From positions 1 to 31,044 of the IMG/VR virus record IMGVR_UViG_3300031857_000896: DNA of 31,044 nt. One strand, written 5' to 3'. Positions within the stretch are counted from its first letter, which is position 1. Every line of letters starts with the position of its first letter. The stretch comes from a virus. The position numbers and the translations under genes are program-made. Below are positions 1 through 18,056 of this stretch, one piece after another. Below the pieces are notes generated by a model. That model saw only the letters and a list, made by a program, of their open reading frames with translations. It searched no databases and was not told the DNA's origin.

Positions 1-2
1 AG

Positions 3-989: not shown

Positions 990-1164
990 ACTCAGCTCGA
1001 TCCCGAGCAAACAGTTCGAGATGGCAACCATCATGGTCGGACAGTGGACGGACGAACGCCTGAAGAAAGCTCAGGCCATCGATCTGATCAGGGCGTATGG
1101 GCTCGACGTTATCGAGGCAGAGAAGATCCTCGACAAGGAACTGCGTAAGAGAAAGTGGAAGTGA
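976..1164 (+). CDS. Small basic helical protein, unknown function
   Basis: A 62-residue protein that I do not recognise. It is rich in charged residues and probably all-helical, with a very basic end (KELRKRKWK). I chose the ATG at 976 because GAGAAGG lies 9 nt upstream; an ATG at 958 in the same frame has no comparable site. The gene overlaps the end of the ATPase gene by 14 nt and its stop codon lies 3 nt before the helicase start, so it is translated as part of the replication operon. The basic tail could touch nucleic acid or a partner enzyme, but that is inference only. Confidence 0.6.
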   Translation: MARNKLSSIPSKQFEMATIMVGQWTDERLKKAQAIDLIRAYGLDVIEAEKILDKELRKRKWK

Positions 1165-1167
1165 TGT

Positions 1168-2655
1168 ATGGTCCAGCTTAGAGACTATCAGGAGCGTGCA
1201 ATCGACGCCGTTCGTGATAGCTTCAGGCAGGGTCATAAGCGCACGCTGCTGGTCAGCCCGACTGGCAGCGGCAAGACCCTGATGTTCAGCTACATATCGG
1301 CAGGCATGGCGCGCAACGATAAGCGCATCGTGATCATTGCGCACAGGCGTGAGCTGCTCAAGCAGATCAGCGCCGCGCTCAAGAACGTGGGCGTCAAGCA
1401 TGCGGTGCTGGCTGCGGGCACACTGGGCCTGCCTCGGGCCAATGTCGTGGTCGCTTCGGTGTTCACGCTGGCACGCAGGCTGGCCAAATTCCCGGCCCCT
1501 GATCTGATCATCGGGGACGAGGCGCACCACTTCACGCCTGACTCCACATGGGGGAAGGTTGTGCAGGCCTTTCCGAATGCCCGCGTATTGGGCGTCACAG
1601 CCACGCCTGAGCGCCTCGATGGCAAAGGGCTAGGTCTCCTATTCGATGACATGGTTATGGGCCCTACGGTCGCTGAGCTGACCGAGCAGGGCTATCTGTC
1701 ACCGGCTGAGGTCTATGCCCCGAGCAAGCCTGACCTATCCCGGGCGCGTACCCGCATGGGTGATTACGTCACGAAGGATCTCGAGGACACGATGGACAAG
1801 CCATCCATCACCGGCAGCGCGGTAGCTCACTATCGCAAGCTGGCCGATGGTCGTCGGGCTGTGGCCTTCTGCGTCAGCGTCAAGCACGCCAAGGATGTGG
1901 CCGAAGAGTTCAGGCAGGCAGGCTATCATGCCAGCCACGTCGACGGTGGCATGGATGAGAAGGAACGGGACAGCGTGCTGGCTCGGTTCGAGGCCGGTGA
2001 GATACAGGTTCTGACGAGCTGCGACCTGATCAGCGAGGGCTTCGACCTTCCTGCCATCGAGGTCGCCATCCTGCTCAGGCCGACGAAGAGCCTGTCGATG
2101 TATCTCCAGCAGGTGGGCCGGGCCATCCGCCCATCACCGGGCAAGGAGAAGACGATCGTCCTCGATCATGCCGGCAACACGAAGATGCATGGGTTCATCG
2201 ACGAGCATCGCGAGTGGGAGCTGACGACTGAGCGTGCGCGCAAGCGCACCAGTGAGACAGCGGTGCCGACCGTGCGCAGTTGTCCGTCATGCTTCGCAAT
2301 GCACAGGCCCATGCCGGTCTGCCCGAAGTGCGGTCACGTCTATCAGTTGAAGTCGCGCAAGGTGCAGCAGGTTGAGGGCGAGCTGGTGCAGGTAACGCGA
2401 GCCGACGATGCCAAGCAGGCGTCAGCCGTGATGGATCTGAACCGGCGCTTTAGTGTCTTGAAAAAGATTGGAAGTAGCAGAGGATACGCACACCCTGACA
2501 AGTGGGCATTCAATGTCATCTGCGGTCAGGAGTCTGCCCGTCTGGCTAAGCTCAGGTCGGCAAACGGGAGCGTCACGACCGATGGTCTGACAGTGGAAGA
2601 GAGGTCAAGGATATGGAACGCGACGATTGGGAGGATGACGAAACCAGCGCCGTGA
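1168..2655 (+). CDS. DEAH-box superfamily 2 helicase with C-terminal zinc knuckle
   Basis: This 495-residue protein has the full set of SF2 helicase motifs: a Q-type motif at the start (RDYQERA), Walker A SPTGSGKT at 30-37, AHRREL, Walker B/DEAH at 117-120, VTATPERLD (motif III), and QQVGRAIRP at 314-322 (motif VI with the arginine finger). A C-x2-C-x9-C-x2-C cluster at residues 372, 375, 385 and 388 should bind zinc and is common in phage helicases of this type. ATP-driven unwinding or remodelling of DNA during replication or recombination is the expected role. It begins 3 nt after the preceding stop and overlaps the next gene by 43 nt. A VRR-NUC nuclease gene follows closely; helicase/VRR-NUC neighbours recur in phages. 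The helicase assignment is secure; the substrate is not known. Confidence 0.92.
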   Translation: MVQLRDYQERAIDAVRDSFRQGHKRTLLVSPTGSGKTLMFSYISAGMARNDKRIVIIAHRRELLKQISAALKNVGVKHAVLAAGTLGLPRANVVVASVFTLARRLAKFPAPDLIIGDEAHHFTPDSTWGKVVQAFPNARVLGVTATPERLDGKGLGLLFDDMVMGPTVAELTEQGYLSPAEVYAPSKPDLSRARTRMGDYVTKDLEDTMDKPSITGSAVAHYRKLADGRRAVAFCVSVKHAKDVAEEFRQAGYHASHVDGGMDEKERDSVLARFEAGEIQVLTSCDLISEGFDLPAIEVAILLRPTKSLSMYLQQVGRAIRPSPGKEKTIVLDHAGNTKMHGFIDEHREWELTTERARKRTSETAVPTVRSCPSCFAMHRPMPVCPKCGHVYQLKSRKVQQVEGELVQVTRADDAKQASAVMDLNRRFSVLKKIGSSRGYAHPDKWAFNVICGQESARLAKLRSANGSVTTDGLTVEERSRIWNATIGRMTKPAP

Positions 2656-2837
2656 TCGTGCCGGTTTCCCTGATCCACGCCCTTACATTCGAGATGCTGC
2701 ACACCATTGATACGTGGCATGAGGATAGGAACCTCGACGAGGTGAACCTGAGCAAATGCTTTGTCGCCATGATGGCTGCCGTTGACGCAGCGATGGAGCG
2801 GCTGAGCAACTCATCTGGACAGGAGACACTGCAATGA
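2613..2837 (+). CDS. Small acidic protein, unknown function
   Basis: A 74-residue protein whose first 43 nt overlap the end of the helicase gene in another frame. A purine-rich stretch (GAAGAGAGG) sits just upstream of the ATG. The N-terminus is strongly acidic (MERDDWEDDE) and the rest alternates hydrophobic and charged residues, as in a small helical bundle. The stop codon overlaps the ATG of the VRR-NUC gene (ATGA), so the two are translationally coupled and may act together. I recognise no domain. Its position between helicase and nuclease suggests an accessory or adaptor of DNA processing, which is inference. Confidence 0.6.
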   Translation: MERDDWEDDETSAVIVPVSLIHALTFEMLHTIDTWHEDRNLDEVNLSKCFVAMMAAVDAAMERLSNSSGQETLQ

Positions 2838-3154
2838 AAGAGGCCGTCATCCAGCAGGAGATCCGGCTTGCTCTGGGTCAGCGCGACGACATCATGCTGT
2901 TCCGCATCAACGTCGGCAAGTTCCGACCGCTTGATGGTGGGCCGCGCGTTATCCAGTCAGCGCCAGAGGGGACTCCCGACCTGCTTGGGGTGATGACCCC
3001 GGGCCGAGCGTTCGCCATCGAGGTCAAGACCGAGCGAGGCAAGCAGCGCACGGCGCAGGTGGCATGGCAGAATGCGTGGGAAAAGCGCGGCGGGATCTAC
3101 GTTTTGGCCCGATCAGTGGAGGATGTTTATCGTGGGCTTGACATTCAGCCTTAG
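2834..3154 (+). CDS. VRR-NUC domain nuclease
   Basis: A 106-residue single-domain protein matching the VRR-NUC family of PD-(D/E)xK nucleases. The active-site set is visible: E9 in an N-terminal helix (QQEIR), the signature EGTPDLLG with D49, and AIEVKTERGKQR with E63 and K65. Length is typical of stand-alone phage VRR-NUC proteins. Family members cut branched or flapped DNA (structure-specific endonuclease); here it would act on replication or recombination intermediates together with the helicase upstream. It starts by ATGA overlap with the 74-residue gene. The last codons contain a promoter-like TTGACA, and a 44-nt spacer follows, the longest gap in this block. Confidence 0.88.
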   Translation: MKEAVIQQEIRLALGQRDDIMLFRINVGKFRPLDGGPRVIQSAPEGTPDLLGVMTPGRAFAIEVKTERGKQRTAQVAWQNAWEKRGGIYVLARSVEDVYRGLDIQP

Positions 3155-3167
3155 CGGTATACATTAT
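3138..3167 (+). promoter_or_regulatory. Putative sigma70-type promoter for the exonuclease/annealase/SSB genes
   Basis: A perfect -35 TTGACA at 3138-3143 is followed after 18 nt by CATTAT at 3162-3167 (four of six matches to TATAAT). Transcription would start near 3174, ahead of the GGAGG at 3186-3190 and the ATG at 3199. It overlaps the end of the VRR-NUC gene. Elsewhere in this block genes abut or overlap, so a 44-nt spacer supports a regulatory role. Host sigma-factor preference is unknown. Confidence 0.5.
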
Positions 3168-3196
3168 GACAACAACATAAAGACCGGAGGTATACA
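3156..3196 (+). repeat. Pair of GGTATACA direct repeats flanking the presumed transcription start
   Basis: GGTATACA occurs at 3156-3163 and again at 3189-3196. The copies are 33 bp apart, about three helical turns, and each contains the palindrome GTATAC. One overlaps the -10 region and the other the ribosome binding site, where an operator would be effective. A 54-residue ribbon-helix-helix-like protein is encoded just downstream and could be the binder; this is inference. Chance occurrence of an 8-mer pair is possible. Confidence 0.3.
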
Positions 3197-3198
3197 AC

Positions 3199-4134
3199 AT
3201 GGCAATTATTTCTGTGCGTGACGAAGCGCACTGGCACGAGTTGCGTGCCAAACACATCGGCGGTAGTGACGTGGCCGCCCTGTTCGGGCTGTCTCCCTTC
3301 ACATCCCGCTGGCAGTTGTGGATGGAGAAGGCTGGCAAGATTGCCCCCGAAGATCTGTCAGATAACAAAGCTGTGCAGGCCGGCACGTTCCTCGAGAGCG
3401 GCATCGCCAACTGGGCAGCGCATCGCTGGTCGATGGATGTCACCAAGGTCATCGACTATTTCACGGTCGATGATTGCCCGGGCATGGGCGCATCGTTCGA
3501 TTACATCACAGCGGACGGCGCACCTGTGGAGATCAAATGGTCTGCTCGCGGTCATGGCTGGCATTACAGCGGCGATGAGATCCTCGAGGCCCCTGAGAAT
3601 TACATCCTTCAGGTGCAGCATCAGCTCGCTTGCACGTCATCCGATCATGCATGGCTGGTCGCCCTGATCGACGACGAGCCGCGCCGCATGAAGATACCGC
3701 GTAACGATAACATCATCGACGCTATCAAGTCTGAGATCACCACGTTCTGGGACAGCATCGCCAATGGTGTCGAACCGGAGATCGACTTCCAGAAGGACGT
3801 GGCTGCGCTGACCAAGCTGATGGGCACGCTACCCAAGAGCGACATCACGCTTGATGATGGCGACGCCCTGCTCTTCGCAGACTATAAGCTGGCCAAGGAA
3901 GATGAGAAGAAGGCCATCGCCCGTGCTGACGAAGCCAAGGCTCTGATCATGGTCAAGGTTCGGGAGAAGCTCGAGCTTGTGAACACGTCCAAGGATAAGG
4001 CCTCGGTCAAGTGCGGCGAATATAAGATGTCGATCAGCACCGTCGCCGACAATCCCGGGAAGGTGATCACGCAGGACATGGTCGGAACCGTAACAGGAAA
4101 GCGCTCGGGTTATACCCGGGTTGTCATCAGCTAA
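3199..4134 (+). CDS. YqaJ-type viral recombinase exonuclease
   Basis: A 311-residue protein of the YqaJ/lambda-exonuclease fold. Signatures in order: IGGSDVAALFG at 20-30, G62 with E66 (AGTFLESGIANW), GASFDYI with D101, VEIKW with E111 and K113, and a later YILQVQHQL helix. D101-E111-K113 form the PD-(D/E)xK site. The remaining part, about 210-311, is a helical C-terminal extension that may bind the annealase. The enzyme is expected to chew one strand of double-stranded ends, producing single strands for RecT. A strong GGAGG lies 8 nt before the ATG. The stop (TAA) overlaps the next ATG by one base. Partner genes for annealase and SSB follow directly. Confidence 0.92.
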   Translation: MAIISVRDEAHWHELRAKHIGGSDVAALFGLSPFTSRWQLWMEKAGKIAPEDLSDNKAVQAGTFLESGIANWAAHRWSMDVTKVIDYFTVDDCPGMGASFDYITADGAPVEIKWSARGHGWHYSGDEILEAPENYILQVQHQLACTSSDHAWLVALIDDEPRRMKIPRNDNIIDAIKSEITTFWDSIANGVEPEIDFQKDVAALTKLMGTLPKSDITLDDGDALLFADYKLAKEDEKKAIARADEAKALIMVKVREKLELVNTSKDKASVKCGEYKMSISTVADNPGKVITQDMVGTVTGKRSGYTRVVIS

Positions 4135-4298
4135 TGAAAGAGCTGGTCATGACCCGGGTCAACAAGGAGCTACTCAACCAGCTCCGCTCTGTTGCCGCTC
4201 GCCACCCTCTGAAGCCAAGCCTGCGCTCATCGCTTGAGCGCGCCATCGAACTGATGATTGAAGATCTCGAAGAGGAAATTCGCAATGCAAACAAGTAA
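4134..4298 (+). CDS. Small ribbon-helix-helix-like protein
   Basis: A 54-residue gene whose ATG overlaps the exonuclease stop (TAATG) and whose 3' end overlaps the annealase start by 14 nt. The sequence reads as a short strand (VMTRVNKELLNQL) followed by two helices joined by a Ser/Pro turn (HPLKPSLRSSLERAIELMI). That is the pattern of Arc/MetJ-type ribbon-helix-helix DNA-binding proteins. A start at the internal ATG at 4149 would keep the whole motif. The tail is acidic. As a dimeric repressor it could control this module, for instance through the GGTATACA pair near 3160-3196. Function is inferred from the fold pattern only. The conserved position between exonuclease and annealase overlaps supports that it is translated. 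Confidence 0.5.
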   Translation: MKELVMTRVNKELLNQLRSVAARHPLKPSLRSSLERAIELMIEDLEEEIRNANK

Positions 4299-5355
4299 CG
4301 CAGTCACCCCCATCAAGCCGATGGATCGCTTCCGTCAGGAGCTGACGGCGCGTGAGGACCACCTGCGCAAGCTGCTGCCGAACACCATGTCGGTAGATAA
4401 GTTCCAAGCCATCGTGGTTGCAGCTGTCGCTGACAACATCGATCTGCTCGACTGTGATCGTGGCTCGCTGCTCAAGGCCTGCCTGAGCGCCGCTGAGCTG
4501 GGCCTGTCGCTCAATAAGAACATGGCTGAGGCTGACATCCTCAAGGTCTGGAACGGCAAGACCAAGCGCAATGAAGCGCAGTTCCGTCCCCGCTACAAAG
4601 GTCTGATGAAGCTGGCCCTGCAGGGCGGTGACGTGCTGAAGATCGAGAGCCGTCTGGTCTATGCCAACGACACGTTCGAGGTCGAGGAAGGCATCGACCC
4701 CCGCATCATCCACAAGCATGGCCTCTCCAATCGTGGCGAAATGGTCGGCGCATACTGCGTGTGGAAGCTGAAGAACGGGGAGACGCAGTTCGAGATCATG
4801 AACAAGAGCGAGATCCTTGCCATCCGTGATCGCTCCTCTGCCAAGACCAAGGACGGTAACATCGTCGGCCCTTGGAAGACGGACGAAGCTGAGATGTGGC
4901 GCAAGACTGTGGTCCGCCGGGCCAGCAAGTACATGCCGCTCTCGACCGAAGCGCAGCGCGCAGTGCAGGAAGACAACGAAGCTGACGGCATCGTCGATGC
5001 AGACGATCTCGTCGGGGACGTGGGAGACATCACAGACGTAACGCCTGAGCCGACCATGCACCGCGCCGAGAAGCAGGTCAGCGTCCTCGAGCAGAAGGTC
5101 GCGCGCAAGCCAGCGCCCGAGCCTGAGCCAGAGATTGAAACAGAACCTGCGCCAGAGGTCACACTCTTGCATGCCGTCGAGGATGCGGATGGCGTGGTAG
5201 ACTGGGACACATGGGCCTATGCAGCCTATGAAGCCGTCGCAGATCTCAGTGAAGAGCAGCGCGCAGAGTGGAAGGCGATGCACGCTGACATGATTGATGA
5301 GGCTGAGATGATGGCACCCCGTGCGCTCAAGCCCCTCAAAGACCTGTTGAAATAA
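4285..5355 (+). CDS. recT: RecT family single-strand annealing protein
   Basis: A 356-residue protein with the RecT family core. Residues about 10-80 contain LTAREDHLRKLLP and DRGSLLKACLSAAELGLSL. These are followed by RPRYKGLMKLALQ, EGIDPRIIHK and, near 220, WRKTVVRRASKYMPLS. Such proteins coat single strands and anneal them to complementary DNA, working with a partner exonuclease. The C-terminal 110 residues are acidic and Pro/Glu-rich (EPEPEIETEP) and probably flexible. I prefer the ATG at 4285 over an upstream TTG- or ATG-like extension because AGAGGA lies 9 nt upstream. The gene follows the YqaJ exonuclease and precedes an SSB-like gene, the classic arrangement of a phage recombination cassette. 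Confidence 0.9.
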   Translation: MQTSNAVTPIKPMDRFRQELTAREDHLRKLLPNTMSVDKFQAIVVAAVADNIDLLDCDRGSLLKACLSAAELGLSLNKNMAEADILKVWNGKTKRNEAQFRPRYKGLMKLALQGGDVLKIESRLVYANDTFEVEEGIDPRIIHKHGLSNRGEMVGAYCVWKLKNGETQFEIMNKSEILAIRDRSSAKTKDGNIVGPWKTDEAEMWRKTVVRRASKYMPLSTEAQRAVQEDNEADGIVDADDLVGDVGDITDVTPEPTMHRAEKQVSVLEQKVARKPAPEPEPEIETEPAPEVTLLHAVEDADGVVDWDTWAYAAYEAVADLSEEQRAEWKAMHADMIDEAEMMAPRALKPLKDLLK

Positions 5356-5366
5356 GGAGAAAGTAA

Positions 5367-5675
5367 ATGGCTAAGAAGTATGATCTCGTCGTCAAGGTTG
5401 GCGAATACACCGATGGACAGGGCCAGACCAAGGGCCGCTTCAAGAACGTCGGCGTCATGATGGAAGGGCAGAACGGCCCATACATCCTGCTCGACCGCAC
5501 GTTCAATCCTGCCGGCGTTGGCGGCAATGATGGACGGGAGAGCATCATCGTGTCCCTGTATGAGCCAAAGGCTGACGGTAACCAGCCGAGCCCTGCGCAG
5601 CAGCAGCACTCGCAGCAGAAGGCCAATGCCTTCCAGCCGCAGCCGCGTGACCTGCAGGACGATGTGCCCTTTTGA
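5367..5675 (+). CDS. SSB-like single-stranded DNA binding protein with acidic DDVPF tip
   Basis: A 102-residue protein. Residues 1-70 alternate hydrophobic and polar residues, with aromatic and glycine positions, as expected for a small OB-fold or similar beta barrel. Residues 70-95 are a Gln/Pro-rich linker, and the protein ends in DLQDDVPF. That last segment closely copies the conserved SSB C-terminal tip (DDDIPF), which recruits SSB partners such as RecO, exonuclease I and helicases. I therefore read it as a phage ssDNA-binding protein working with RecT and YqaJ. AAGGAG lies 7 nt before the ATG. The OB-fold itself is inferred from pattern, not from clear motifs; the C-terminal tip and the context carry the assignment. 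It is the last plus-strand gene and converges on the late operon. Confidence 0.62.
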   Translation: MAKKYDLVVKVGEYTDGQGQTKGRFKNVGVMMEGQNGPYILLDRTFNPAGVGGNDGRESIIVSLYEPKADGNQPSPAQQQHSQQKANAFQPQPRDLQDDVPF

Positions 5676-5684
5676 GAATGATGA

Positions 5685-5707
5685 GGCGGGGGCTTACTGC
5701 TCCCGCC
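5685..5707. terminator. GC-rich hairpin between the converging early and late operons
   Basis: GGCGGGGGC (5685-5693) can pair with GCTCCCGCC (5699-5707) around a 5-nt loop, giving a 9-bp stem with one G-U pair on the plus strand. It lies between the SSB-like stop and the end of the 2224-residue gene, which is where a shared terminator would be expected. There is no U-run on either side, so it is not a standard rho-independent terminator; it may only slow or collide polymerases. Confidence 0.3.
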
Positions 5708-8700
5708 GCTTCACGTCGTTGTAAGCAGCGTTAAACCTGCTCATAATCTCGAGCTGCTTGCTCCGGTATTCATCAGGATCCATTTCATTGGCATCCTTGC
5801 GCAGCTCTTTAAGTTCCTTGTCAGCCGTCTTGTAAGCTTCCACCACAGTGGAGTCGATAGCCACAGGCTTCGAGTTTTCCATGAACACCTTCTCGGAATC
5901 GTCACCCTCGTCCGCCAGCTTCTGTGCGTCGATGGCCCTCTTCATGTCAGGCTGTGCCTCATAGAACCTACCCATCGGAGAGTACTCGATAAGCTTCGGG
6001 TCGAAGTAGAATGGGTTCAGCTTCTTCGCCGCCTCGATATCACCTTCGACAGCCCCGCCGACCAGACGGCCCACGCCTCCAGTGTATTGGTCGACGAAGT
6101 ATTTGAGTTGGTCAGGCGACACGTCGATGTCACCCTTCACTCGGCCATAACCACCAGTCGCCTTCTGAAGGCCCTCAGCAATCATCTTATAGACTTCAGG
6201 TGTTGAGGGCTTGGCGCGCGATGCCTGAGCAATACTTTCATCGAACGGCTCGTTGTAGATTGGAGACTTGAAGAAGCTCTCATTGATCAGCAGGTCGTAC
6301 ATCGGAGCGACGCTGGTCGGTGCTAGAGTGCGCGCCTCAGTGCTGCGGATGACGGGCGATAGGGACGACAGGAAGGCAGCGCCAACCTGCTGACCAGCCG
6401 TCAGGATATCGACAGACGCCTTGGCATCCGATGTCTTGCCAGCCAGAACCTCAGCCATCTTGCCACCGACATACCGCTCGAACACGAACAGGAAGCCAAT
6501 GGGCAGCGTGAGCGGCTTCTCATCTGGGCTGTAATAGACGTGCAAGAACGCCAGCTTCCGCCACTCAGGCATCTGGCTATAGTCATCCTCGCCATCCCCA
6601 TCACTATCCGGGGCGTTCATGACATTCAGCATGCCGAGGGCAAAGCCAATGCCAAGCTGCGCGACAAGCATTCTGCGATAGGTCGAGCTGTCGAGGCTGG
6701 TCACCTTGCGCGTGAGGTTGGTTAGAGACGGCGTCGTCCACCAGAAGATGCCGTCAATGATGCGCCCGAAGCGTCCCATCTTGGTGAGGTCGAGCGTGCT
6801 GCGCAGTGCAATAGGCGCAGCCTGCTCTGGTGTGAGGCCGGCTTCCGTGAGCGCACGATAGGCAGCGACGCGCGGCACCAGATCCACGAAGTCGTTGATA
6901 CCATCGACTGCCTTCAGCAGCTTATTGAAACCTTCCTTGGTTTCGTAATAGCCAGACTTCACGCCTGTTGCAGTCAGACGCTTCAGCTCCGCTTCCATCC
7001 GCTGGGCCACGCGCTCAGCGCGCTCAGCAAATTCCTGACCAGCAGCGCCGCCATTGACGATCATCTCTTCCGTCAGAGCCTTGACGAATGCAATCTCTTC
7101 ACTCCCCGGTTCGCGATTAACGAGATGGGAGAACACACCCGCCATCGTGTTGGGAGACCATGAATACTTCCACGTCTTCATGGCAGCCGACTTGCCATAG
7201 GCTGCGCTGCGCTTACGGCCCTTCTCAGTGAAGACATTACCGGCTGCGTCAGACACACTGCGTAGAAACTCACGCGGCCAGAAGGCAGGGTTGAACCGCG
7301 TGTGCAGCCCGCGCATCACGGACATTATCTTTAAGAGCCGCTGAGTCCACTTACCAAGTTGCAGCGGGTCGAGGTTGTTAAAGGCGCGCAGGGTAGCGCG
7401 GCCCTCCTCGTTGGGTGCAGTCTCAATGATGTACGGCTTGCCGTTCTTGAAGGCCCGGATGCCGTTCTTATAGGCATTCTCATCGGTGATCTTGACCGGC
7501 TTGCCCTTAACGATCTTCGGGCTCTTCTCATCATAGATCGTGAGCAAACCTTCGAACGCATCCGGATCACGCTGATACTCAGTCGCTACCGTATTGATAA
7601 CCTGATTACGCTGACCCATCTCCAAGAACATCTCGGCGTCAGCGATCATGTTATACAGAGAGTTGGCTGCCTGAGAAGAGCGGCCCTTGGCTTCCTTCAC
7701 AGGCTTCGCTCTCAGTCCAGCGACACGACTATAGACCGGACGGCCTCCCTCATACGCGCCATAATCGGCGTGTGGATCAGGCTGCCCTTCGACAGTCAGG
7801 TCACCGCTCGGGGCCCAGCCCTTGTAGGGCGTGTAGTTGGGGTACTTGCGCTTCCAGTCAGCCATTGTCTCGGCGGAGACGAGGCCGTCATTCACCATCA
7901 TTTCCTGCGTCTTATTGCGCAGGCGGTCATGCAGCTTCAGTACCCGGTTGATATAGCGCATCTTGCCCGAAAGCTGGAGGTCACTGAGGATTGCTTCGGC
8001 CTGAGCATCAGTCAGACCTGAGCCACCATCAGGCATGTCCTTATTCTTTGCAGCGATCTCAGCATTACGCTCGGCAGCACCGCGAGCCTGAAGCGCATCG
8101 TTGATATCGTCCAGCGTGACACCGTTCTTGATGGCATCATTCACCGCGTCGTCGATGGGGTCGACGTAATCACGGCGCAACTTCATGAGCTGACCGTTCT
8201 TCTTGGAGAGGAAGGTCTCGAACTTGCTATAGAACGAGTCGGATTCCGGCAGCGTCTCCATGCCATATGATCGCGCGCGCCAGTTATCCGCAGCCCGGAT
8301 GCCAGAGAACTGACTTCCGATATTACTCCATGAAGCACTGGTGCGCCAACGCGCAGCAGCCTGACGCAGGCGGCTCATGCGCACGGGCTCAGGGTCTACC
8401 GATGCCTGAGGTTGGGTCTCGATAGATGCCGACGGCCCTTCAGCGCGGCGGCTGACGACCACTTCTTCCGGCTTGCGCTCACGCTCGGATTTCAGCGCAC
8501 CAGCGGCGCGCAACTCCTCGCGGTTCTTGCCCCTCTGTGCGGATACATCACGTGCTTCAATCTCTCCGGCAAGATCCTGATAGCGGGTGAACCCACGATC
8601 AGCGTCTTCGGAGAAGAACTTCTTGGCCATTCTTGCGACAGGGGAATCCTTATCTGTACCATCCCATGTGGGCATATTATCAATCGCCGACTGAAGATCG

Positions 8701-11700
8701 GACGCATAAGAATTGATATTGCCTTCAATTAAGGAAAGCGCGGTCGCGTCGATAGGCAGTGCAGGGATGCCGGATGTCTCACGGTAAACATTGAATTTAC
8801 GTATGGCATCAATCGCGACATCAACCCCAACGTCATCAGCAGCTGGATCCTCAAAGAAGTAAGGAGCGATAGCCTCCTCAATCTGTTGTTCAGTCGGGAA
8901 TAGACCGAGGTCGCCTTCGAGAGTATCAACCAAGAAGGATAGAATATCCGACGCGCTCTTATTTGCCTCGAGTTCTGCCTTCATTTTATCAATGAAGATC
9001 CTCCCCTCGTAAGCCTTCTGAGCTGGGCTGAGCTGGTTCCAAACACCCTCAGGAGAGCCGCCGACTGCAAAACCTTCCTTGTCCTGCACCCAGTGCTGAA
9101 CCTCATGGAGCAGCGTACCCAGAGGGTCTGCTGCCTTAGTGTAGAGAGTTATAGATTTTTTATCAGGGTTAAATGAGCCTTGAATATTGCTGCCCGGGAG
9201 AGACTTCTTAACAAAGACTTGAATGTTCTTCGCCTCAGGATAGATCTTATAAAGCTCTGGATGCCTAATGAGATCCTGAAGCTCGATGGCTCCACCCCTG
9301 ATAAACTTATCTTGGTTCGACATCTTCGTAGTATCGAAGTCTGCAATCAGATCTTCGAGGAACATTCTCTTCTGCGCCAAGTTATCAGGCTGCAGATAGC
9401 GCCATTCGTTGTCGTATGGGTTGCGCTCCCAGCCAGTAGCAACGCGGATGGTGGCGGCGTCCTGACCTTCCTGCTCCATCTGCTGTGCGACAGCATAGTC
9501 TTCGGCGATTAAGCGGCGATTTTCTGCATCGATTTCGTTCTCGCCTTCGCGAGCTTCCGTGATCCCACGACCAGCGTAGATCGGGCGGCGACCCGGCATC
9601 TCTGCTGTGCCTGCAAAATATGCAGCGCGCTTGGCAGATCCCTTGTCCTCGCGGGTTGCGAACTCACCGCTGCGGATCGCATCGAACACTGCGTTCGCGT
9701 CGTTCAGGTTCTGGTCGAAGAAGAAGTCGCGGATCGCATTCAGGAAGCGGCGCATCTTCGCGAACACAGTGTTCTTTTTCTGGAAGCCTTCTGCACTCTC
9801 AGCCATCCACGCACGGAAAGCCTCAGCGACAATCTCTTCGTCCTTGTTCGCCCGCGTCTCGCCGCGATAGGCGTACTCAATGATGCCGCGCATCACGAGG
9901 TCGCGCTTGGCGAACTTCAGGATGGCGCTCCATTCAGCGTCGCTGAAGAAGCCGTGATCCTTCAGGTAATGCACCAGCTCATGGTACAGCACCGACTCCA
10001 TCACCGTGCCATCTGGGTTCATGGCGACGCGGATGATGCTGTCCATCGGGTCGTAGCTACCAGCGAACTTACCGCCCTCGAGGAGGTCGCGGACAATCAC
10101 CGTGATATTGTCGAAGCCAAAACCCTTGAGGATCTCACGCAGCTTGTTGCGCGCATCTTCACGCGCTGCCTTGCGGGCCTCGTAATCAGCGGCCTCCTGC
10201 TCGGTCGTGACGCCACCGGCCAGCTCGCCGGCCATAGCAGACGGAGCTGGTGGCTCACCCAGAGGAACAGCCGCAACGCCCGGCTCTTCAACCACTGGCT
10301 CGGCTGCCCCAGCAACCACCTCGGGCGGGGCAGCGGAAGGTGGCGCTGGGACTTCTTCTTCAGCGACAGGCGGAACCTGCTCGAATGCGGCGCGCGCCTG
10401 TACCTGACGGCGCTCTGCCTCATTCAGCTCAGTGTTCGGATAGCCGCGCTCGGCCAGCGCCTGACGGAATGCACCAGCCGGGTTCTCAACGGTTGCATCA
10501 TTGATGATTGTGTCGAACAACTGCTGCCGCTCGGTCTGCGCCTGACGGATCGGGGAACCCTGACCAATCAGAGATGCAGTTTCCAGCGCGCTCTCACGCT
10601 CAAGGGCCGCACGTTCTTCTGCGGCGCGGGCTTCATCTTCTACTGCCAGCTCGACGTTCTGCTCGAGAGCCTGCTCAATAGACGACGGCTCGACAGCCGG
10701 TGCCTCGACACGAGCTGGTGCGGCAGCGCGCGTGCGCGCGAACTCGACGCGGTAATCGTTAACGATGCTCTGCGCTTCGTCGATCTCAGCCTGACGCTGA
10801 GCCTTCGTCGTCTCAGCCATGCGGCTGGCAGCCAGCGCGTTCATGCGGGACTGGATAGTCCGCTGAGCAGCGACCGGATCTTCTGCCTCGAGAGCCGATG
10901 CCACGTCATTCGCCAGAGACACGACACGACCGGCAGGCTTTGCACCCTCAGGCGTTCCGCTTGCTATGCGTAGGCGCTCTGTAATCGTCGCACGGTCGAT
11001 AGTCGGAGCGGGTTGGACTTCTTCCTCAGACGGGATCTCAAATGCGGCTGAGGCAGCCTCACGCTCAGCGAGATCGGATGCCCGCATCTCAAAGGCTTTG
11101 CCGGTGTCGTCACGCACAGTAATGTAGCCATCGGCATCTGGCTCGCTCATCACATCAATCGTGCGTGTGATCGGGGCAGATGGGTCTGCGCGGTTAGGGA
11201 ATGTGATCCGCGTGGTGCGGAGCGGCTCACCTTCAATTGTGGGCTGAGGCGCAGCAGGCGGTTGCTCAGCTCCGCGCGCTGCAAACCCCTGAGCTGCACC
11301 AGCGCCAGCACCAATGGTAGCCCCACCAATTGCACCAAGAGCGCCAGAGGACAGCAGGCCTTCGCTGATATCCGTCTCAGCAGCGGTGCCAAGCTTACCG
11401 ATGTTCTGCGCAAGCTGCGCACCGGACTCTTCGATGAACTCCTGCGGAGCTTCGCCAACGGCTGAACGCGCAGCTCCACGAATGATACCGGGTTTAAGCG
11501 CCTTGCTCGAGAATAGGTTCTGCTCGAGGCCCGGAAGCTTCGATGCCACATTGGACGCCAGCGCAGCGCCACCAGCAGCCACAACGAATGCGCGGTCAGC
11601 TTCTTCCTGTGTGCCGCCCTTAGCCAGAACATCCTGCGCTGCGCTGTAGCCAGCGTCAGTAGCGTTCAGTGCGATGCCTGTGCGGACAGCAGCGCGCTCA

Positions 11701-12368
11701 CCAGCTTGCGCAGCAGCCGTGCGGCCAAGCCCCTGAGCCAGCGCGGTCGCGCGATTAACGCCACCAGCAAGTACTGTGGCGGCAGTAGCTGGTACCTGCG
11801 ACGCAAAAAACTCTGCGACCTCAATCGGAGAACCAAACTGAGAAGTGACGGTCGAGACTTCGCGCTGCGCTTCCTCAGGGGTGCCGGGCAGAAGGCTTCC
11901 AAACACGCGGCCCGGAGAGATGTAATCAGCAATGTCGCTCAGCGCAGAACGCGCAGCTTCAGGACGCTTCGGACCCTCAAGGAATTGACGAGCGCTAGAA
12001 AGGCCACGAGCCAAAGCGCCGGGAGCCTTGGCTTCCTCTTCTACTTTCCGCTGCTGTTCCTGCGTGCGCTGCAAGCCAGCCTCAGAACGCGAACCCTTGA
12101 GAAACTTCTCAGCTTCACTCAGTACAGTTCCAGAGACAAGCGGTGCAAATGACGTGGGAAAAGCGCGCTGAGCAATGTATTGACCGGGCTTGGCGATATC
12201 TATGACGGCCTGCCCAAGCTTACCGCCAACGTCTGCCAGATCCTGAAGGAAGCCGGTCTCTTGGGGCTTCTTGGGCTTCTGCTTTTCAGCGGCTTGTTGC
12301 TTTTGAACACGAACCCGCGCACGGGCTAGAGCTAATGCGCGCTGCTGTTCAAGAGTCAACTCTGCCAT
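5694..12368 (-). CDS. Giant polyvalent virion protein with two zincin-like domains (2224 aa)
   Basis: Very large multidomain protein of the phage polyvalent type, expected to be packaged and delivered with the DNA. Visible layout: basic Gln-rich helix (1-35); Ala/Gly-rich, partly hydrophobic segments (about 180-365); small beta domain (about 380-440); charged coiled coil (about 460-640); Pro/Ala/Glu linker (about 660-710). A first zincin-like domain has HELVH at 796-800 and DEEIVAEAF with E845/E849 as possible third ligand. A second has HEVQH at 1088-1092 and GEIEARD at 1268-1274, resembling an LPD23-type domain. The C-terminal third resembles LPD38 (NPAFWPREF near 1690, VDQYTGG near 2087), with a hydrophobic stretch and DSDGDGEDD at 1921-1929. 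Proposed roles are protease activity in the virion or the infected cell. Start follows AAGGGTGG; it is the last gene of the late operon. Domain names are my recognition, unsearched. Confidence 0.82.
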   Translation of the reverse strand: MAELTLEQQRALALARARVRVQKQQAAEKQKPKKPQETGFLQDLADVGGKLGQAVIDIAKPGQYIAQRAFPTSFAPLVSGTVLSEAEKFLKGSRSEAGLQRTQEQQRKVEEEAKAPGALARGLSSARQFLEGPKRPEAARSALSDIADYISPGRVFGSLLPGTPEEAQREVSTVTSQFGSPIEVAEFFASQVPATAATVLAGGVNRATALAQGLGRTAAAQAGERAAVRTGIALNATDAGYSAAQDVLAKGGTQEEADRAFVVAAGGAALASNVASKLPGLEQNLFSSKALKPGIIRGAARSAVGEAPQEFIEESGAQLAQNIGKLGTAAETDISEGLLSSGALGAIGGATIGAGAGAAQGFAARGAEQPPAAPQPTIEGEPLRTTRITFPNRADPSAPITRTIDVMSEPDADGYITVRDDTGKAFEMRASDLAEREAASAAFEIPSEEEVQPAPTIDRATITERLRIASGTPEGAKPAGRVVSLANDVASALEAEDPVAAQRTIQSRMNALAASRMAETTKAQRQAEIDEAQSIVNDYRVEFARTRAAAPARVEAPAVEPSSIEQALEQNVELAVEDEARAAEERAALERESALETASLIGQGSPIRQAQTERQQLFDTIINDATVENPAGAFRQALAERGYPNTELNEAERRQVQARAAFEQVPPVAEEEVPAPPSAAPPEVVAGAAEPVVEEPGVAAVPLGEPPAPSAMAGELAGGVTTEQEAADYEARKAAREDARNKLREILKGFGFDNITVIVRDLLEGGKFAGSYDPMDSIIRVAMNPDGTVMESVLYHELVHYLKDHGFFSDAEWSAILKFAKRDLVMRGIIEYAYRGETRANKDEEIVAEAFRAWMAESAEGFQKKNTVFAKMRRFLNAIRDFFFDQNLNDANAVFDAIRSGEFATREDKGSAKRAAYFAGTAEMPGRRPIYAGRGITEAREGENEIDAENRRLIAEDYAVAQQMEQEGQDAATIRVATGWERNPYDNEWRYLQPDNLAQKRMFLEDLIADFDTTKMSNQDKFIRGGAIELQDLIRHPELYKIYPEAKNIQVFVKKSLPGSNIQGSFNPDKKSITLYTKAADPLGTLLHEVQHWVQDKEGFAVGGSPEGVWNQLSPAQKAYEGRIFIDKMKAELEANKSASDILSFLVDTLEGDLGLFPTEQQIEEAIAPYFFEDPAADDVGVDVAIDAIRKFNVYRETSGIPALPIDATALSLIEGNINSYASDLQSAIDNMPTWDGTDKDSPVARMAKKFFSEDADRGFTRYQDLAGEIEARDVSAQRGKNREELRAAGALKSERERKPEEVVVSRRAEGPSASIETQPQASVDPEPVRMSRLRQAAARWRTSASWSNIGSQFSGIRAADNWRARSYGMETLPESDSFYSKFETFLSKKNGQLMKLRRDYVDPIDDAVNDAIKNGVTLDDINDALQARGAAERNAEIAAKNKDMPDGGSGLTDAQAEAILSDLQLSGKMRYINRVLKLHDRLRNKTQEMMVNDGLVSAETMADWKRKYPNYTPYKGWAPSGDLTVEGQPDPHADYGAYEGGRPVYSRVAGLRAKPVKEAKGRSSQAANSLYNMIADAEMFLEMGQRNQVINTVATEYQRDPDAFEGLLTIYDEKSPKIVKGKPVKITDENAYKNGIRAFKNGKPYIIETAPNEEGRATLRAFNNLDPLQLGKWTQRLLKIMSVMRGLHTRFNPAFWPREFLRSVSDAAGNVFTEKGRKRSAAYGKSAAMKTWKYSWSPNTMAGVFSHLVNREPGSEEIAFVKALTEEMIVNGGAAGQEFAERAERVAQRMEAELKRLTATGVKSGYYETKEGFNKLLKAVDGINDFVDLVPRVAAYRALTEAGLTPEQAAPIALRSTLDLTKMGRFGRIIDGIFWWTTPSLTNLTRKVTSLDSSTYRRMLVAQLGIGFALGMLNVMNAPDSDGDGEDDYSQMPEWRKLAFLHVYYSPDEKPLTLPIGFLFVFERYVGGKMAEVLAGKTSDAKASVDILTAGQQVGAAFLSSLSPVIRSTEARTLAPTSVAPMYDLLINESFFKSPIYNEPFDESIAQASRAKPSTPEVYKMIAEGLQKATGGYGRVKGDIDVSPDQLKYFVDQYTGGVGRLVGGAVEGDIEAAKKLNPFYFDPKLIEYSPMGRFYEAQPDMKRAIDAQKLADEGDDSEKVFMENSKPVAIDSTVVEAYKTADKELKELRKDANEMDPDEYRSKQLEIMSRFNAAYNDVKRREQ

Positions 12369-12377
12369 TGCCCACCC

Positions 12378-13577
12378 TTATTGAAACAGCTTCTTTTCCG
12401 CAGCTGTCATAGCATTCCACTCAGCGTTTGTGCCAGTGAAATTTTTGCGCTCTGGGCCCGTGTAAACTTCACCGCGAACACTACGCCGGAATGGTGTCCC
12501 CGGCTTCCGGTTCTCAAGCACAGCGAGCCGATCACGTGAGCGGCGATAGTTGTCACGGGCAATTTCGTATTTGCCCTTGAGTTCCTTCTTCTTCTCAGGG
12601 TCTTTTTCTTTCTGATACGCATAGAAAGCATCACTGGCTTTCGTGCGCAGCTCAGGCAGATCGCGTGTGAACTTGCCAGTCTCTTCTAGGACAGACGTAG
12701 CTGAAGCTGGTTTGGGCCCGGCACCATCGCCACCGCCGCCACCGCCGCGAGGCCCACGAAGCGTGTCAACAATCCTTGCTTCCGTCAGTCGGAGGTCAGC
12801 CTTCTTACCCTTAACCTCAAGGTCAGCCATCTCGAGGCGCTGAGGCATTGTGACCTCTTCCTCTGCGGCTTTACGTGCGGCAGCCAAAGCTCGCTCTTCA
12901 GTTTCACCAGCAGCCAACGCTGCGTTGTAAACGGAGAGCGCACGATCCTGAGCGGACTGACGACCGCGAACAACAGCAAGACGAATGTCTTCATCCGCAG
13001 CCTGTAGGCGTGAGCGCTTCTCTTCACGCTTGAGTTTAGCCTCATCTAGGCCTTTAACGCCAGCTTCAAGACCAGAAGCCAAAGCCTGCATGAAATACGG
13101 GCTATTACTCTGAGCCATCGCGAAGCCGGCACGAGCCAGTGCGTCCCAACCCTCCTGCCTCTTATCACTTTCGAGACGCTCTAGATCCTTTGCTGTGCGC
13201 GCACGGCGCTCATTGAGGAGGGCTTCCTCTTCAGGATTCATGCGAGCCTTAGAGAGAATGTCTAGTACATTCTGCGCGCCAGCCTGCCTTGCCTGAGAGC
13301 CACGCGCTAGGATGGCATCAACCTCTTTATTTCCAGTCGGCGTAAATTCACGAGGCTTGATCATGCTACGAAGCGCAGCCATCTCATCATACTGCTGAGG
13401 AGGAGGCGCGGCCACAGCACGTTCAGATTGCGGCGCGACTACACCCACATTCATCGGCACACCGGGAAGAGGTGTGGCAGGCGTTGCTTGAACTGGCGGC
13501 GGACGACGGAACGGCTGACCCGCCATCATCATTGCCAGTATGCGTTGGCGCTCTTCCTCAGACATCATGCCAGCCAT
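12378..13577 (-). CDS. Coiled-coil rich virion-associated protein, unknown function
   Basis: A 399-residue protein that I do not recognise by family. The N-terminus is methionine-rich and amphipathic (MAGMMSEEERQRILAMMM), then Pro-rich (about 25-65). Residues about 110-270 are strongly charged, Ala/Glu/Arg-rich helices likely to form a coiled coil, and a Gly-rich linker (RGPRGGGGGGDG) leads to a Lys-rich C-terminus. I use the ATG at 13577, which overlaps the upstream stop (TAATG) and has AAGGA 9 nt before it, rather than a TTG 21 nt earlier. It lies between two presumed internal virion proteins and the giant polyvalent gene, so an internal, DNA-ejection related or scaffold-like role is likely. 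That is inference from context and from the absence of signal peptide or catalytic motifs. Confidence 0.65.
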   Translation of the reverse strand: MAGMMSEEERQRILAMMMAGQPFRRPPPVQATPATPLPGVPMNVGVVAPQSERAVAAPPPQQYDEMAALRSMIKPREFTPTGNKEVDAILARGSQARQAGAQNVLDILSKARMNPEEEALLNERRARTAKDLERLESDKRQEGWDALARAGFAMAQSNSPYFMQALASGLEAGVKGLDEAKLKREEKRSRLQAADEDIRLAVVRGRQSAQDRALSVYNAALAAGETEERALAAARKAAEEEVTMPQRLEMADLEVKGKKADLRLTEARIVDTLRGPRGGGGGGDGAGPKPASATSVLEETGKFTRDLPELRTKASDAFYAYQKEKDPEKKKELKGKYEIARDNYRRSRDRLAVLENRKPGTPFRRSVRGEVYTGPERKNFTGTNAEWNAMTAAEKKLFQ

Positions 13578-14551
13578 TAGCCTACATCCTTCAACCAACC
13601 CAGACCATGCATCGGGTGCTTCATGTTGCGCTTGCCATCCTTGACTGGGCCTTCAATCTCGCCGCCTTCTTTCTTGCCGAAGACGCCAAGCTTACCCAGA
13701 ATGCCGGCAACACTCCCCGTAACCCCAAGTAACTGCTGCAATGTTGACGGGCCCGGCGCGCTTTCAACGCGGGTGCCAGAGCCGGTGGCTGCTGGAGCGC
13801 CGCCAATAGCTGCAAGACGCTGTGCCTGCAGATACGGATAGTCACGCTGCGCCTCAAAGTCTTCACGGGCCAGATCAGCAGAACGCTGAGCAAGCTGTTG
13901 ACGAAGCAGGCCAATGTCCTGAAGGCCGGTAATGTCAGCAGTGCGCTGCTCCTGAAGCTGGGAGCCGAGCTGAGCATACCTTGGTGCGGCTTCCAGCATG
14001 CGATTGGATTCAGCGCCATAGAGATCAGCCGCTGTCTTGTAGCCCTCAGTCAGGGCGCTGACCTGCTTCTCAAGCGCTGCGGCCTGCGCGTCGCGGATAG
14101 CGCGTTGCGTGAACTCAGCACTGCGCGAACCGCCGAACGTGCCACCACCAATGAAGGTGCGGTTCACAGCCGGGAGGATGTTCTCATAGAGATTGCGACC
14201 AGCCATCGAGCCAATACCTGCCACGACGTTCTGGATATATGGGTTCATGTACTGCTGAGCGACACCGGGTGTGGTGAACGATGTGGTGCCACGACCTAGA
14301 GCTTCAGCCGACGCGCCAATGTACGGCTGATACGCACCCATCGATGACTTGAAGCCAGCGAATGCCTGCTCCTGCTCAGGCTGGAAGCCGGCGATTCGGG
14401 CAATAGGTACCTCCTTGCCCGCCGCGTCCTTGGTCACATACTTCTGATACGGCTCAGACGTGGACTCATACGCCTTCTTGAGGACGTTCTGTGCATACTG
14501 AGTATACCACTCAGGGAGGATCGTTTGGGTAGTTGTCTGTTGAACCGCCAT
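13577..14551 (-). CDS. Internal virion / tail-associated protein (NPYIQNVV type)
   Basis: A 324-residue protein. The middle has QQYMNPYIQNVVAGI followed by GGGTFGGSRSAEF, then long Ala/Gln/Arg helices, a pattern I have seen in structural proteins of marine and freshwater podoviruses annotated as tail or internal virion proteins. The C-terminus carries a hydrophobic stretch (LLGVTGSVAGILGKLGVFG) and a KKEGGEI segment like those in the 1081-residue neighbour. It could be a DNA-ejection protein that contacts membrane. Start and stop overlap those of its neighbours by one base each (TAATG twice), so expression is tightly coupled. Exact function is unknown. Confidence 0.65.
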   Translation of the reverse strand: MAVQQTTTQTILPEWYTQYAQNVLKKAYESTSEPYQKYVTKDAAGKEVPIARIAGFQPEQEQAFAGFKSSMGAYQPYIGASAEALGRGTTSFTTPGVAQQYMNPYIQNVVAGIGSMAGRNLYENILPAVNRTFIGGGTFGGSRSAEFTQRAIRDAQAAALEKQVSALTEGYKTAADLYGAESNRMLEAAPRYAQLGSQLQEQRTADITGLQDIGLLRQQLAQRSADLAREDFEAQRDYPYLQAQRLAAIGGAPAATGSGTRVESAPGPSTLQQLLGVTGSVAGILGKLGVFGKKEGGEIEGPVKDGKRNMKHPMHGLGWLKDVG

Positions 14552-17500
14552 TATGCCTTACTCCCAACCGCTTTAAGCATCTGCTCAATACCCTGCTGCG
14601 GTTTCGCAATCTTCTTTACGTTCTTGCGCCCTGCCCGTTTGCGCACCATTTGGCGCATCTTGTCAAGACGCCGCACACCCTCATTCGTCGAGCCATCACC
14701 AAGATCGGCCACGTCCTGAGCGCTCCAGACATATTCACCGTCCGAAAGCCAAGCCGGGATCTTGTCTTCCTGCCCACTGCCGATACCATTGACCGGACCC
14801 GGACCATGATGACCGCCGCCTTTGCGGTACTCCATGAGGTGCTTTACCATATCATCATTCATTTCGCCACCTTCAGCCATGCCAGTGGCTGCTTTCATCT
14901 GACCAACCGTAGGCCAATCGAAAGTCAGCGGCTTACTATATTGAGAGCGAACGTCCTGAAGGCTTTGAGTATAGCGACTGAGGATATCATTCAAAGCAGC
15001 ATTAGATTCCGTGATGCCAGCGTTATAAGAATTGAAAGGCATGAACCTACCTTTTCTTCCGCCAACATCCAAAGCTGCGTTGAGCTGTTCAGGCGTAGTA
15101 TATCGGCTGAGAACATTCATCATATCGCCAATATCTGCACCTCCTCGAATGTCTCGCTGACCATACAGCATGGGCGACGACAGCTCGCGCTGAGCGGCCA
15201 GACGCGCATCTTCAGATGCTCCCTGAGCATACATCGCCTTATTCAAGGCTGAAGATATACTTGCGTTATTGAGGTCTCCGTACAACGAAGCGTTGCGTGC
15301 AGCCGCCGCCTCACGCTCCGCGCGCGCGGCGTCAATCAGTGGGCTATATTCGGCCCGAACGCTATCTTGAGCGGCCTTGCGTGCGGCAGTCTGTTCAGCG
15401 CGAGCCGCCTGCCTCGTTTGCTCATAAAGCTCTCGGTCAATATCCCCGCGAGCAAAGTATGGCTGCGCCGCCTCGCGCGCTAAACGCTTAGCTTCATTCT
15501 CAGCGATTGACTTTCTCTGCTGTTCAGCTTGCAATTTTCTTCGCTGAATGTCGTAGTTACGGAGAAGTGTCCGATCTTGTTTTGAAAGTTTTCGATATTC
15601 ATCCGTGCCTATATTAAGACCTGTATATTCATCTATGAACCCCGAAAGCTCATCAGGCAATTCAATCAATCCACCCTCCGCAGCCGTGACAGGTGCAACG
15701 CCGCCAAGGCCAGCTCCGAATGTGTTAGCCTGCTTAATTGCCTGATCCAGCGTCAGTGTGCCTGCCTCAACCTGCTTAGCCAGATCATCCTGATAAGCAT
15801 TAAACCTAGCGAGGTTCTGATTGTACGTGTTCATGGTCGCGGCATTCAGCGCATCTACTTGCTCTTGCGTGTATTGATAGCGAGGCGTTCCGCCTACAGT
15901 CTGGACTGTCGCAGGAGTATAAGTCTGAGTAACCGGAGCTATCTGAGCCGGCTTAAAGAACTCAAACTCAGCAGTCTGCTTGCCGGGACCAGCCTGACCA
16001 TAAGTGAATGGATCGAAGCTACCAATCCCACGCTCACGGTTCATTGGTGTGAAAGAGACCCTGCTTTGATCAGGGGTGATTACCTCAGTTCCATCGCCGC
16101 CATCGAGGAGATCCCCAAGGCCCTTGATGAGCGTGGGCGCAAGCAAACCAAGGCGCGCCCAGTCCTTCCATGTCCACTTCTTTTTATCGCCGTCTTTGTC
16201 GTCTTTTTTATCCTCGCCATCTCCGGGCGGAGGCTCTTTATCTTTATCGTCAGTCTTAGTGTCGCCAGTGTCCTGAGCGGTAACAACCGTAGTAGGCGTA
16301 CCTTTATCGTCAGTCTTGTTATCACCAGTGTCCTTAGCAGTGACAACCGTAGTGGGGGTACCCTTGTCGTCGGTCTTAGTATCGCCAGTGTCCTTAGCAG
16401 TCACATCGATATTTGTAGCCGATGTGTCTTTATCACTACCAGTTTCACCAGTTTTACCGTCACCTTGTGCGGTAACAACCGTAGTTGGAGTGCCTTTGTC
16501 GTCGACCTTAGTGTCGCCAGCGTTCTGTGCAGTAACAACCGTAGTGGGCGTTCCGCCAGTGGTGTCCTGCGTATTATCCCCGGTGCGCGTACCAGTTACG
16601 TTGATGGCCCCAGTGGTGCCAATACCAGCGGTCGTGCCGCCTGTACGTGTTCCGGTTACGTCAATGCCGCCATCAGTAGAGCCGCCAGCGCCAGTGCTGC
16701 CACCTCCACTGCTGCCAATACCGCCAGTAACAGGCACCCCGTCTCTTAAACGAACGCCACGGGCAAAATCAAAATACGTGCCATCCCCGAGATCAACACT
16801 ATAGATGCCTTGATCTCTGGCAAACTTCATAAGCTCATCGTATTCGGGATCTCTGCCAGACAACTCACCCATTAGATAATCACTAAGACCAGCGACACCT
16901 GCATTTATCAGGGAGTTTTTAAGGCTCTGCCCAGTGGCGATATTGCCAGCAAAGCTGCCAGCGCCAGCGCCGACAGCAGAACCAAGGTTTGTCGCGACGG
17001 TCTTGGCGGCTTCCCCAGCTTGTGTGGTAGTTTTTACACCCTGAATATATGGTCCAAGGAACTCCGAGCCTGCGGCTGTAAGGCCACCGACCACTGCGCC
17101 CTTGAGTGGATCGCCGCCAGAAATCGCAGAGCCAGCGCCACCAGCCGCAGCTTGCGCCAGAACAGCACCGACACCCTGCAGGCCCGGGATCATACTTACG
17201 ACGATGGGCAGAGCGGCGCCGGCAATCTTATCAAACGTACCATAATCAGGCCTGTCAGTCGCAACCGATTGCCAGCTATCCCCGTATCCAGCTTTTTCAA
17301 TTGTCCAGTTTGCGACCTGACCCTGAGATGAGGACATTTCGTTCGCCGCATCAACCAGACTACGGATGCTATCTCCGCTCGCCGTGCTGCCGATTACGTT
17401 GCCCTTGCCGTCAACCAATCGATAACTTGCGTTGGGATCAACGGCAAACGTCGAACGCTCAGTTACGTCGTTCTCATTATCCCTGTCGGTCTGGCTGCCA

Positions 17501-17798: not shown

Positions 17799-18056
17799 CT
17801 AAGATCCCTGACTAATCACGTCGTTAAAACGCATTGCCCACTCACGCCAATCGTCAAACTGATAGGCGTCTGGAACGCCAAGAGATGCGAGTGACGCAAT
17901 CGTTGATAACCCAGATGCCCAGTTTTTCCAATCTCTTTCGTCCATGAGGCGCACAGCGACCCCAAAGTCCTCAATCGACGGGAACATATAGTCCGCCCAG
18001 TCCACCACATTGTCGACAATGCGCGGATCAATCGTGGTGGTCCGGACCTTCGCCAT
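17799..18056 (-). CDS. Small acidic protein, unknown function
   Basis: An 85-residue protein, Trp/Asp-rich (DERDWKNWASGL, FDDWREWAMRF), probably helical, without signal peptide or transmembrane segment. I do not recognise the family. Its ATG overlaps the stop codon of the stopper-like gene (ATGA), and it ends 2 nt before the start of the 1081-residue gene, so it is translated within the tail/virion part of the operon. A role as a minor tail component or chaperone fits the location but is not shown by the sequence. Confidence 0.6.
   Translation of the reverse strand: MAKVRTTTIDPRIVDNVVDWADYMFPSIEDFGVAVRLMDERDWKNWASGLSTIASLASLGVPDAYQFDDWREWAMRFNDVISQGS

Follow-up and report, generated by a model that had tools for sequence, protein, structure and literature searches.

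Does a single giant protein of a phage carry two zincin-type metallopeptidase domains, and if so, what would they cut and when? The question arises from a 31,044-base linear IMG/VR virus record, a fragment that was analysed at full length (the window). An initial annotation had described a 2224-residue frame at 5694-12368 with HELVH at residues 796-800, HEVQH at 1088-1092, GEIEARD at 1268-1274 and an LPD38-like C-terminal third, and had proposed that the two zincins mature the virion or attack host proteins after injection. The frame is real, although its strand (minus) had been left out, and all three motifs lie at these residues. The functional proposal is a published hypothesis for the class, since Iyer et al. 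2017 (PMC5512222) proposed self-processing, activation after entry, or attack on host proteins. These authors reported zincin MPTases in about 36% of polyvalent proteins (1-5 per chain, about 8% with several), sorted them into 12 clades, and also treated the LPD38 domain. The double zincin and its hypothesis are consequently not new, the class having been described in 2017, and the present protein (P0001) is ordinary for it; what is new here is the assignment of E845 and E1269 as third metal ligands, the latter probable, an LPD23-zincin module, and mosaicism among close relatives.

Genome context and domain layout

P0001 is encoded on the minus strand from an ATG at 12368, with a AGGGTGGGC stretch upstream, down to 5694. 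Translation starts 9 nt past the stop codon of the preceding gene, and the plus-strand reading of 5694-12368 contains stop codons throughout. The gene is the last of a minus-strand late block, in which ejection protein and virion structural families lie upstream of it on the same strand. Directly upstream is the gene of a 406-aa protein (12378-13598, minus) with homologues in two related loci, L003 and L011, followed in the same operon by a member of the DNA ejection protein family (13577-14551, minus; phrog_4287, E 1.1e-17) with homologues in L003, L011 and also L004. The block further encodes a virion structural family (18056-19660), tail fibre-like proteins, an endolysin and a spanin, while the left end of the window carries helicase, nuclease, RecE- and RecT-like genes on its plus strand. 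A pattern search of bacterial genomes with a three-sequence alignment returned 30 pattern matches and 0 relatives; the host was therefore left unassigned.

Several other features of the window were recorded. Adjoining the ejection protein gene is that of a 1081-aa protein (14551-17796, minus) with a repeated 'TKTDDKGTPTTVVTAQ'-like linker (about 16194-16554, 60-nt period), of which only the C-terminal 110-180 residues are conserved in relatives. Two further large frames have no PHROG match: one beside the tail fibre (20689-23547, minus) encodes a 952-aa beta-repeat-like protein, and the other (28887-30497, minus) an acidic protein of 536 aa whose N-terminal stretch is lectin-like and which appears to have a signal peptide. 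The right contig end (30400-31044) is low-complexity, repeat-rich DNA with an Asn/Ser-rich frame at 30371-30826, and possibly caused the assembly to end there.

Within P0001, the N-terminal part (residues 1-720; 10209-12368, minus) is low-complexity, helical and Gly/Ala-rich, with no family match. It is followed by a zincin domain around HELVH (D1), an LPD23 domain that adds to those named in the initial annotation, a zincin domain around HEVQH (D2), and a conserved C-terminal core (residues 1330-2224; 5697-8381, minus; PHROG 14770/616/10691). The core contains a Pfam match to LPD38 at residues 1927-2110 (6039-6590, minus; PF18857, E 4.5e-30), in agreement with the LPD38-like third described before. 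Polyvalent proteins are large and combine domains of disparate predicted activity; P0001, with two zincins, LPD23 and LPD38 in 2224 aa, fits this description in part. Chance is a poor source of such motifs in a chain with 11 His and 194 Glu: at least two HExxH were found in 0.005%, and at least one in 0.4%, of 20,000 residue shuffles of P0001.

Two zincin domains and their predicted metal sites

D1 was delimited to residues 733-910 (9639-10172, minus) by hmmsearch, AlphaFold and Foldseek against the PDB. Homologues were collected over three rounds and conservation was scored on 43 diverse ones, in which H796, E797 and H800 of the active-site helix (HELVH; 9969-9983, minus) are invariant. The initial annotation had offered E845 or E849 as third ligand; the alignment favours the former, since E845 (9834-9836, minus) is invariant in 43/43 and residue 849 is not conserved (E 28, D 5, K 4, R 2, and H, M, Y and P 1 each). 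Located in an EIVA stretch on the glutamate helix, with E844 at 98% before it, E845 also fits the ExxA/S motif defined for the third-ligand glutamate of gluzincins (PMC7213743). These frequencies do not simply reflect a search for the motif, as HExxH is present in 30/30 D1 matches caught solely by a FFSDAEW-type pattern. For domain counts a two-round, D1-only profile was used because five rounds draw in D2; it matched 60 regions in the fetched loci. Tandem D1-type zincins were seen in one of these relatives (L125, frame 3-7745, at 1133-1315 and 1361-1550), and tblastn searches for D1 in named phages did not find it.

The AlphaFold model of D1 (43-row alignment; pLDDT 83.8, pTM 0.78) runs from a long helix through three strands and the HExxH helix to further helices and the E845 helix, and DSSP accordingly assigned three strands followed by a helix at 70-83 (model numbering). 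Foldseek against the PDB ranked zincins at the top almost throughout, including IrrE (probability 0.89), minigluzincins such as selecase (up to 0.95), lethal factor, collagenases and Wss1, with none below E 0.001 (best E 0.055). A Pfam match of D1 to EcoEI_R_C (E 5.5e-5; 23.8 bits, under the 24-bit cut-off) was judged a chance helical match.

D2 spans residues 1025-1285 (8514-9296, minus) in an AlphaFold model of residues 940-1292 (pLDDT 88.2, pTM 0.78), and here too DSSP placed three strands ahead of a helix (143-159, model numbering). Invariant in all 53 aligned homologues are H1088, E1089, Q1091 and H1092 of HEVQH (9093-9107, minus), E1098, and G1268, E1269, E1271, A1272 and R1273 of GEIEARD (8547-8567, minus), the predicted glutamate helix. 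Judged by the ExxA pattern of glutamate helices, which E1269-IEA fits, E1269 is the probable third metal ligand, E1271 being equally invariant (53/53). The family signature HE[VIL]QH...GExEAR is near-universal, and HExQH was present in 40/40 D2 sequences found by the GExEAR pattern alone. Between the two motifs lies an all-helical insert in the secondary structure of the model (about residues 1106-1254; 8607-9053, minus), and the distance from HExxH to GExEA varies from 38 to 221 aa among homologues (180 in P0001). Foldseek of D2 gave no solved match in the PDB, the helical insert dominating the search; predicted phage proteins yielded 14 significant matches, and those with a name are mostly 'large polyvalent protein associated'.

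LPD23 (residues 956-997; 9378-9503, minus; Pfam PF18838, E 8e-8) lies directly N-terminal of D2, and because it precedes D2 in 41/53 homologues, stand-alone proteins included, we treat LPD23-D2 as a module. The D2 family is widespread, with at least 113 IMG/VR relatives and members in Pseudomonas, Stenotrophomonas and EBPR phages. Stand-alone LPD23-D2 proteins measure about 300-650 aa; those recorded individually (316-630 aa) are L089:236-1183, L064:3322-4563, L081:2246-3835 and L068:5254-7143, the last fused to a methyltransferase domain. A further relative (L042, frame 1-9834) has tandem D2-type zincins at 1573-1883 and 2000-2259.

Judging from their profiles, D1 and D2 are homologous and form separate families of one superfamily: hhalign aligned the strand-HExxH portions of the two (P 2.8e-6), and the D1-only profile also matches D2 inside P0001 (14.9 bits). 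Both are under purifying selection, with low Nei-Gojobori dN/dS values against L003 (0.044 for D1 and 0.124 for D2), which retains both HExxH motifs. Like the MPTase domain of Iyer et al. 2017 (PMC5512222; PF18818), they combine a three-stranded sheet, an HExxH helix, a glutamate helix and a variable insert, and they share with it the setting of giant phage proteins with LPD domains, for which several copies per chain had already been reported. Unlike that domain, D1 and D2 both miss the curated Pfam cut-off, P0001 being unmatched by MPTase-PolyVal (PF18818) at E 1; among the 53 D2 relatives there is one match (E 0.0083). A PDB sequence search with the whole of P0001 and both profiles gave nothing usable, its best match being a neutral metalloprotease on the HExxH stretch of D2 (E 0.07). 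The claim of two separate zincin-type domains is thus upheld by profiles, residue conservation, selection and AlphaFold models. Of the structural expectation attached to it, the predicted zincin fold around each HExxH stood; matches to solved zincins were obtained for D1, individually weak, and for D2 there were none. That P0001 is a polyvalent protein with two zincins is, in our judgement, very likely.

Relatives of P0001 and exchange of the D1 slot

Window-by-window BLAST of P0001 against four relatives (L003, L004, L011 and L028), a small number, revealed a mosaic. In L003, residues 401-1300 are 74-99% identical and the C-terminal core 31-44%, with residues 1-350 replaced; its protein (P0002) is also longer before D1, by a segment of some 230 residues (about 780-1000) that P0001 lacks. 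L004 resembles P0001 from residue 1328 onward only (72-83%), its N-terminal part being replaced throughout and its middle part, which differs, containing HEIMH. L011 and, from residue 201 on, L028 retain the N-terminal part of P0001, with about 60-96% identity up to the D1 slot (roughly 65-96% over residues 551-700 and 76-86% over 601-700). Similarity is then lost from about residue 701 to 925, where BLAST of residues 701-900 gave no match in L028 and, in L011, only a shared-motif match on D2. Both regain similarity at LPD23-D2 (about 50-60%) and continue at 60-84% in the C-terminal core.

In place of D1, L011 has a zincin with HEIVH and L028 one with HEFLH. Their hhalign probabilities against D1 (60 and 27, respectively) indicate superfamily-level kinship only, and the slots of L028 and L004 are alike (32% identity, E 1e-37). 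In the four relatives compared, the D1 slot is by sequence always filled by a zincin, drawn from three families, and D1 itself seems to have given way to different kinds of protease among the close relatives. The L011 zincin resembles by eye the N4 virion RNA polymerase (vRNAP) type (GxxxxDDxTIYL...HE(I/L)VH...NEFMA/QEFMA); as BLAST gave only E 0.11, this kinship is not claimed.

More distant comparisons rest on Vibrio, Ruegeria, Burkholderia and Pseudomonas phages. The giant proteins of Pseudomonas phages H66 (gp60), F116, 8P and AF share with P0001 the LPD23-D2 module (E 3e-10 for H66 gp60) together with a second HExxH, and their gene is likewise the last of the late region, before the lysis genes. 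Unlike P0001, they carry D2 first, the second HExxH following about 195-200 aa after it in AF, 8P and H66, their other zincin belongs to another family, and homology to the C-terminal LPD38 core is not detectable. That core is shared instead with the 4515-aa 'DarB-like' protein of Burkholderia phage JC1 (gp69) and other Bcep22-like phages (residues 1414-2161 against 3688-4443 of gp69; 23.6% identity, E 5e-24), whose two HExxH (HEAAH and HEAFH) are neither D1 nor D2 by profile. C-terminal homologues listed by the search also occur in Stx-converting phage records. N4 vRNAP (gp50) is, like P0001, a giant ejected protein, with a HELVH zincin (C1 domain) before a large helical C-terminal domain; P0001, in contrast, is without an RNA polymerase, and the sequence homology is below significance.

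Proposed function and alternatives

The location of P0001 is suggested by two of these relatives, H66 gp60 through LPD23-D2 and JC1 gp69 through the C-terminal core. The record of H66 gp60 notes a virion protein by mass spectrometry (the full wording being that of notes on neighbouring proteins), and JC1 gp69 is an abundant virion protein, with 51 unique peptides from CsCl-purified virions (PMC9144972). By analogy, P0001 is likely to be a virion protein, one that probably travels in the head and is ejected together with the DNA; its place in the late operon beside a DNA ejection protein also counts for this.

The explanation that we consider best as a whole, and to which we assign about an even chance, is a packaged and ejected polyvalent protein with two gluzincin-type metallopeptidase domains of different families, of which D1 is exchangeable and trans-acting. 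P0001 would be packed in the head and enter with the DNA. D1 would bind metal through H796, H800 and E845 with E797 as general base, in a slot that other zincin families appear to fill in close relatives. D2 would use H1088, H1092 and E1269 with E1089 as base; it is the more stably kept of the two and works as a unit with LPD23, and the helical insert between its metal-site helices probably sets substrate access. Both would be metallopeptidases with separate specificities, each cutting proteins, and at least D1 may, once inside the cell, act in trans on proteins of the host or of the entry stage and not as a fixed virion maturation protease. That such trans action is the main role of D1 we put forward tentatively, at somewhat below an even chance. 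The swapping of D1 inside an otherwise conserved chain favours an exchangeable trans-acting payload over a fixed maturation protease; domain swapping can also be neutral recombination, which counts against the payload reading.

The occurrence of D2 in proteins of 300-650 aa, the exchangeable D1 and the uncleaved packaging of N4 vRNAP together weaken the maturation role offered by the initial annotation. They bear also on self-processing, in which one or both zincins would cut the giant chain into units, a step suggested for P1 DdrB that could fall before packaging, within the head or after entry. We hold this to be rather unlikely and yet a serious rival. Iyer et al. 2017 (PMC5512222) put it forward for the class, citing a processed 76-kDa DdrB, and a need to process long chains would fit the distribution of motifs, at least two HExxH being present in 26/44 D2 frames of at least 1500 aa, H66 gp60 among them, against 0/29 of less than 1000 aa (counts in which some records are near-identical and some frames cut). 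The precedent is not clear-cut, as the virion peptides of DdrB span 59.5% of its 108.7-kDa chain. Close kinship of DdrB with D1 or D2 was not evident: profile matches stand at about E 0.02, and a two-sequence BLAST of the P0001 slot against the C-terminal part of DdrB gave E 0.003 over the strand-HExxH stretch. N4 vRNAP is packaged unprocessed (PMC5512222), and the chain around D1 is conserved while D1 itself is exchanged. Since D2 and LPD23 occur in short proteins without a second HExxH, the role of D2 would not be only that of cutting a giant chain.

A different possibility is that the zincin folds serve structure, encapsidation or binding and that proteolysis is dispensable. A region of N4 vRNAP that includes its zincin is needed for encapsidation (cited in PMC5512222), and ArdC, whose domain is of this kind, retains its antirestriction function with a metal-ligand glutamate mutated (PMC7213743), so conserved zincins need not serve as proteases. 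The catalytic glutamate and ligands of D1 and D2 are nevertheless invariant across distant families and dN/dS is low, and we regard a purely non-proteolytic role as improbable. Far less probable still is another chemistry, such as that of alpha-ketoglutarate HExxH hydroxylases: while a preprint on the N4 structure notes that HExxH is common to radical-SAM-associated enzymes (PMC12633501), Foldseek matched D1 to peptidases (IrrE, selecase, lethal factor, Wss1), and D1 and D2 alike have the ExxA glutamate helix of gluzincins.

Returning to the packaged and ejected protein with an exchangeable D1, what deserves following is that a single slot takes zincins of different families. Speculatively, and with little probability at present, the D1 slot may be a protease-swapping site, at which otherwise near-identical giant ejected proteins exchange zincins of unrelated families, each of which would cut its own host proteins (of defence or of entry) once injected, LPD23-D2 staying as the common tool. 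No domain is commoner in polyvalent proteins than the zincin, and yet the literature covered here offers little direct evidence on what any of these zincins cuts. In this lineage, proteins alike in frame differ in the zincin that fills a single slot, which makes a natural experiment, and a cultured LPD23-D2 relative (Pseudomonas H66/F116 or AF) could tell apart cleavage of the chain itself, cleavage of host proteins and a role in structure alone.
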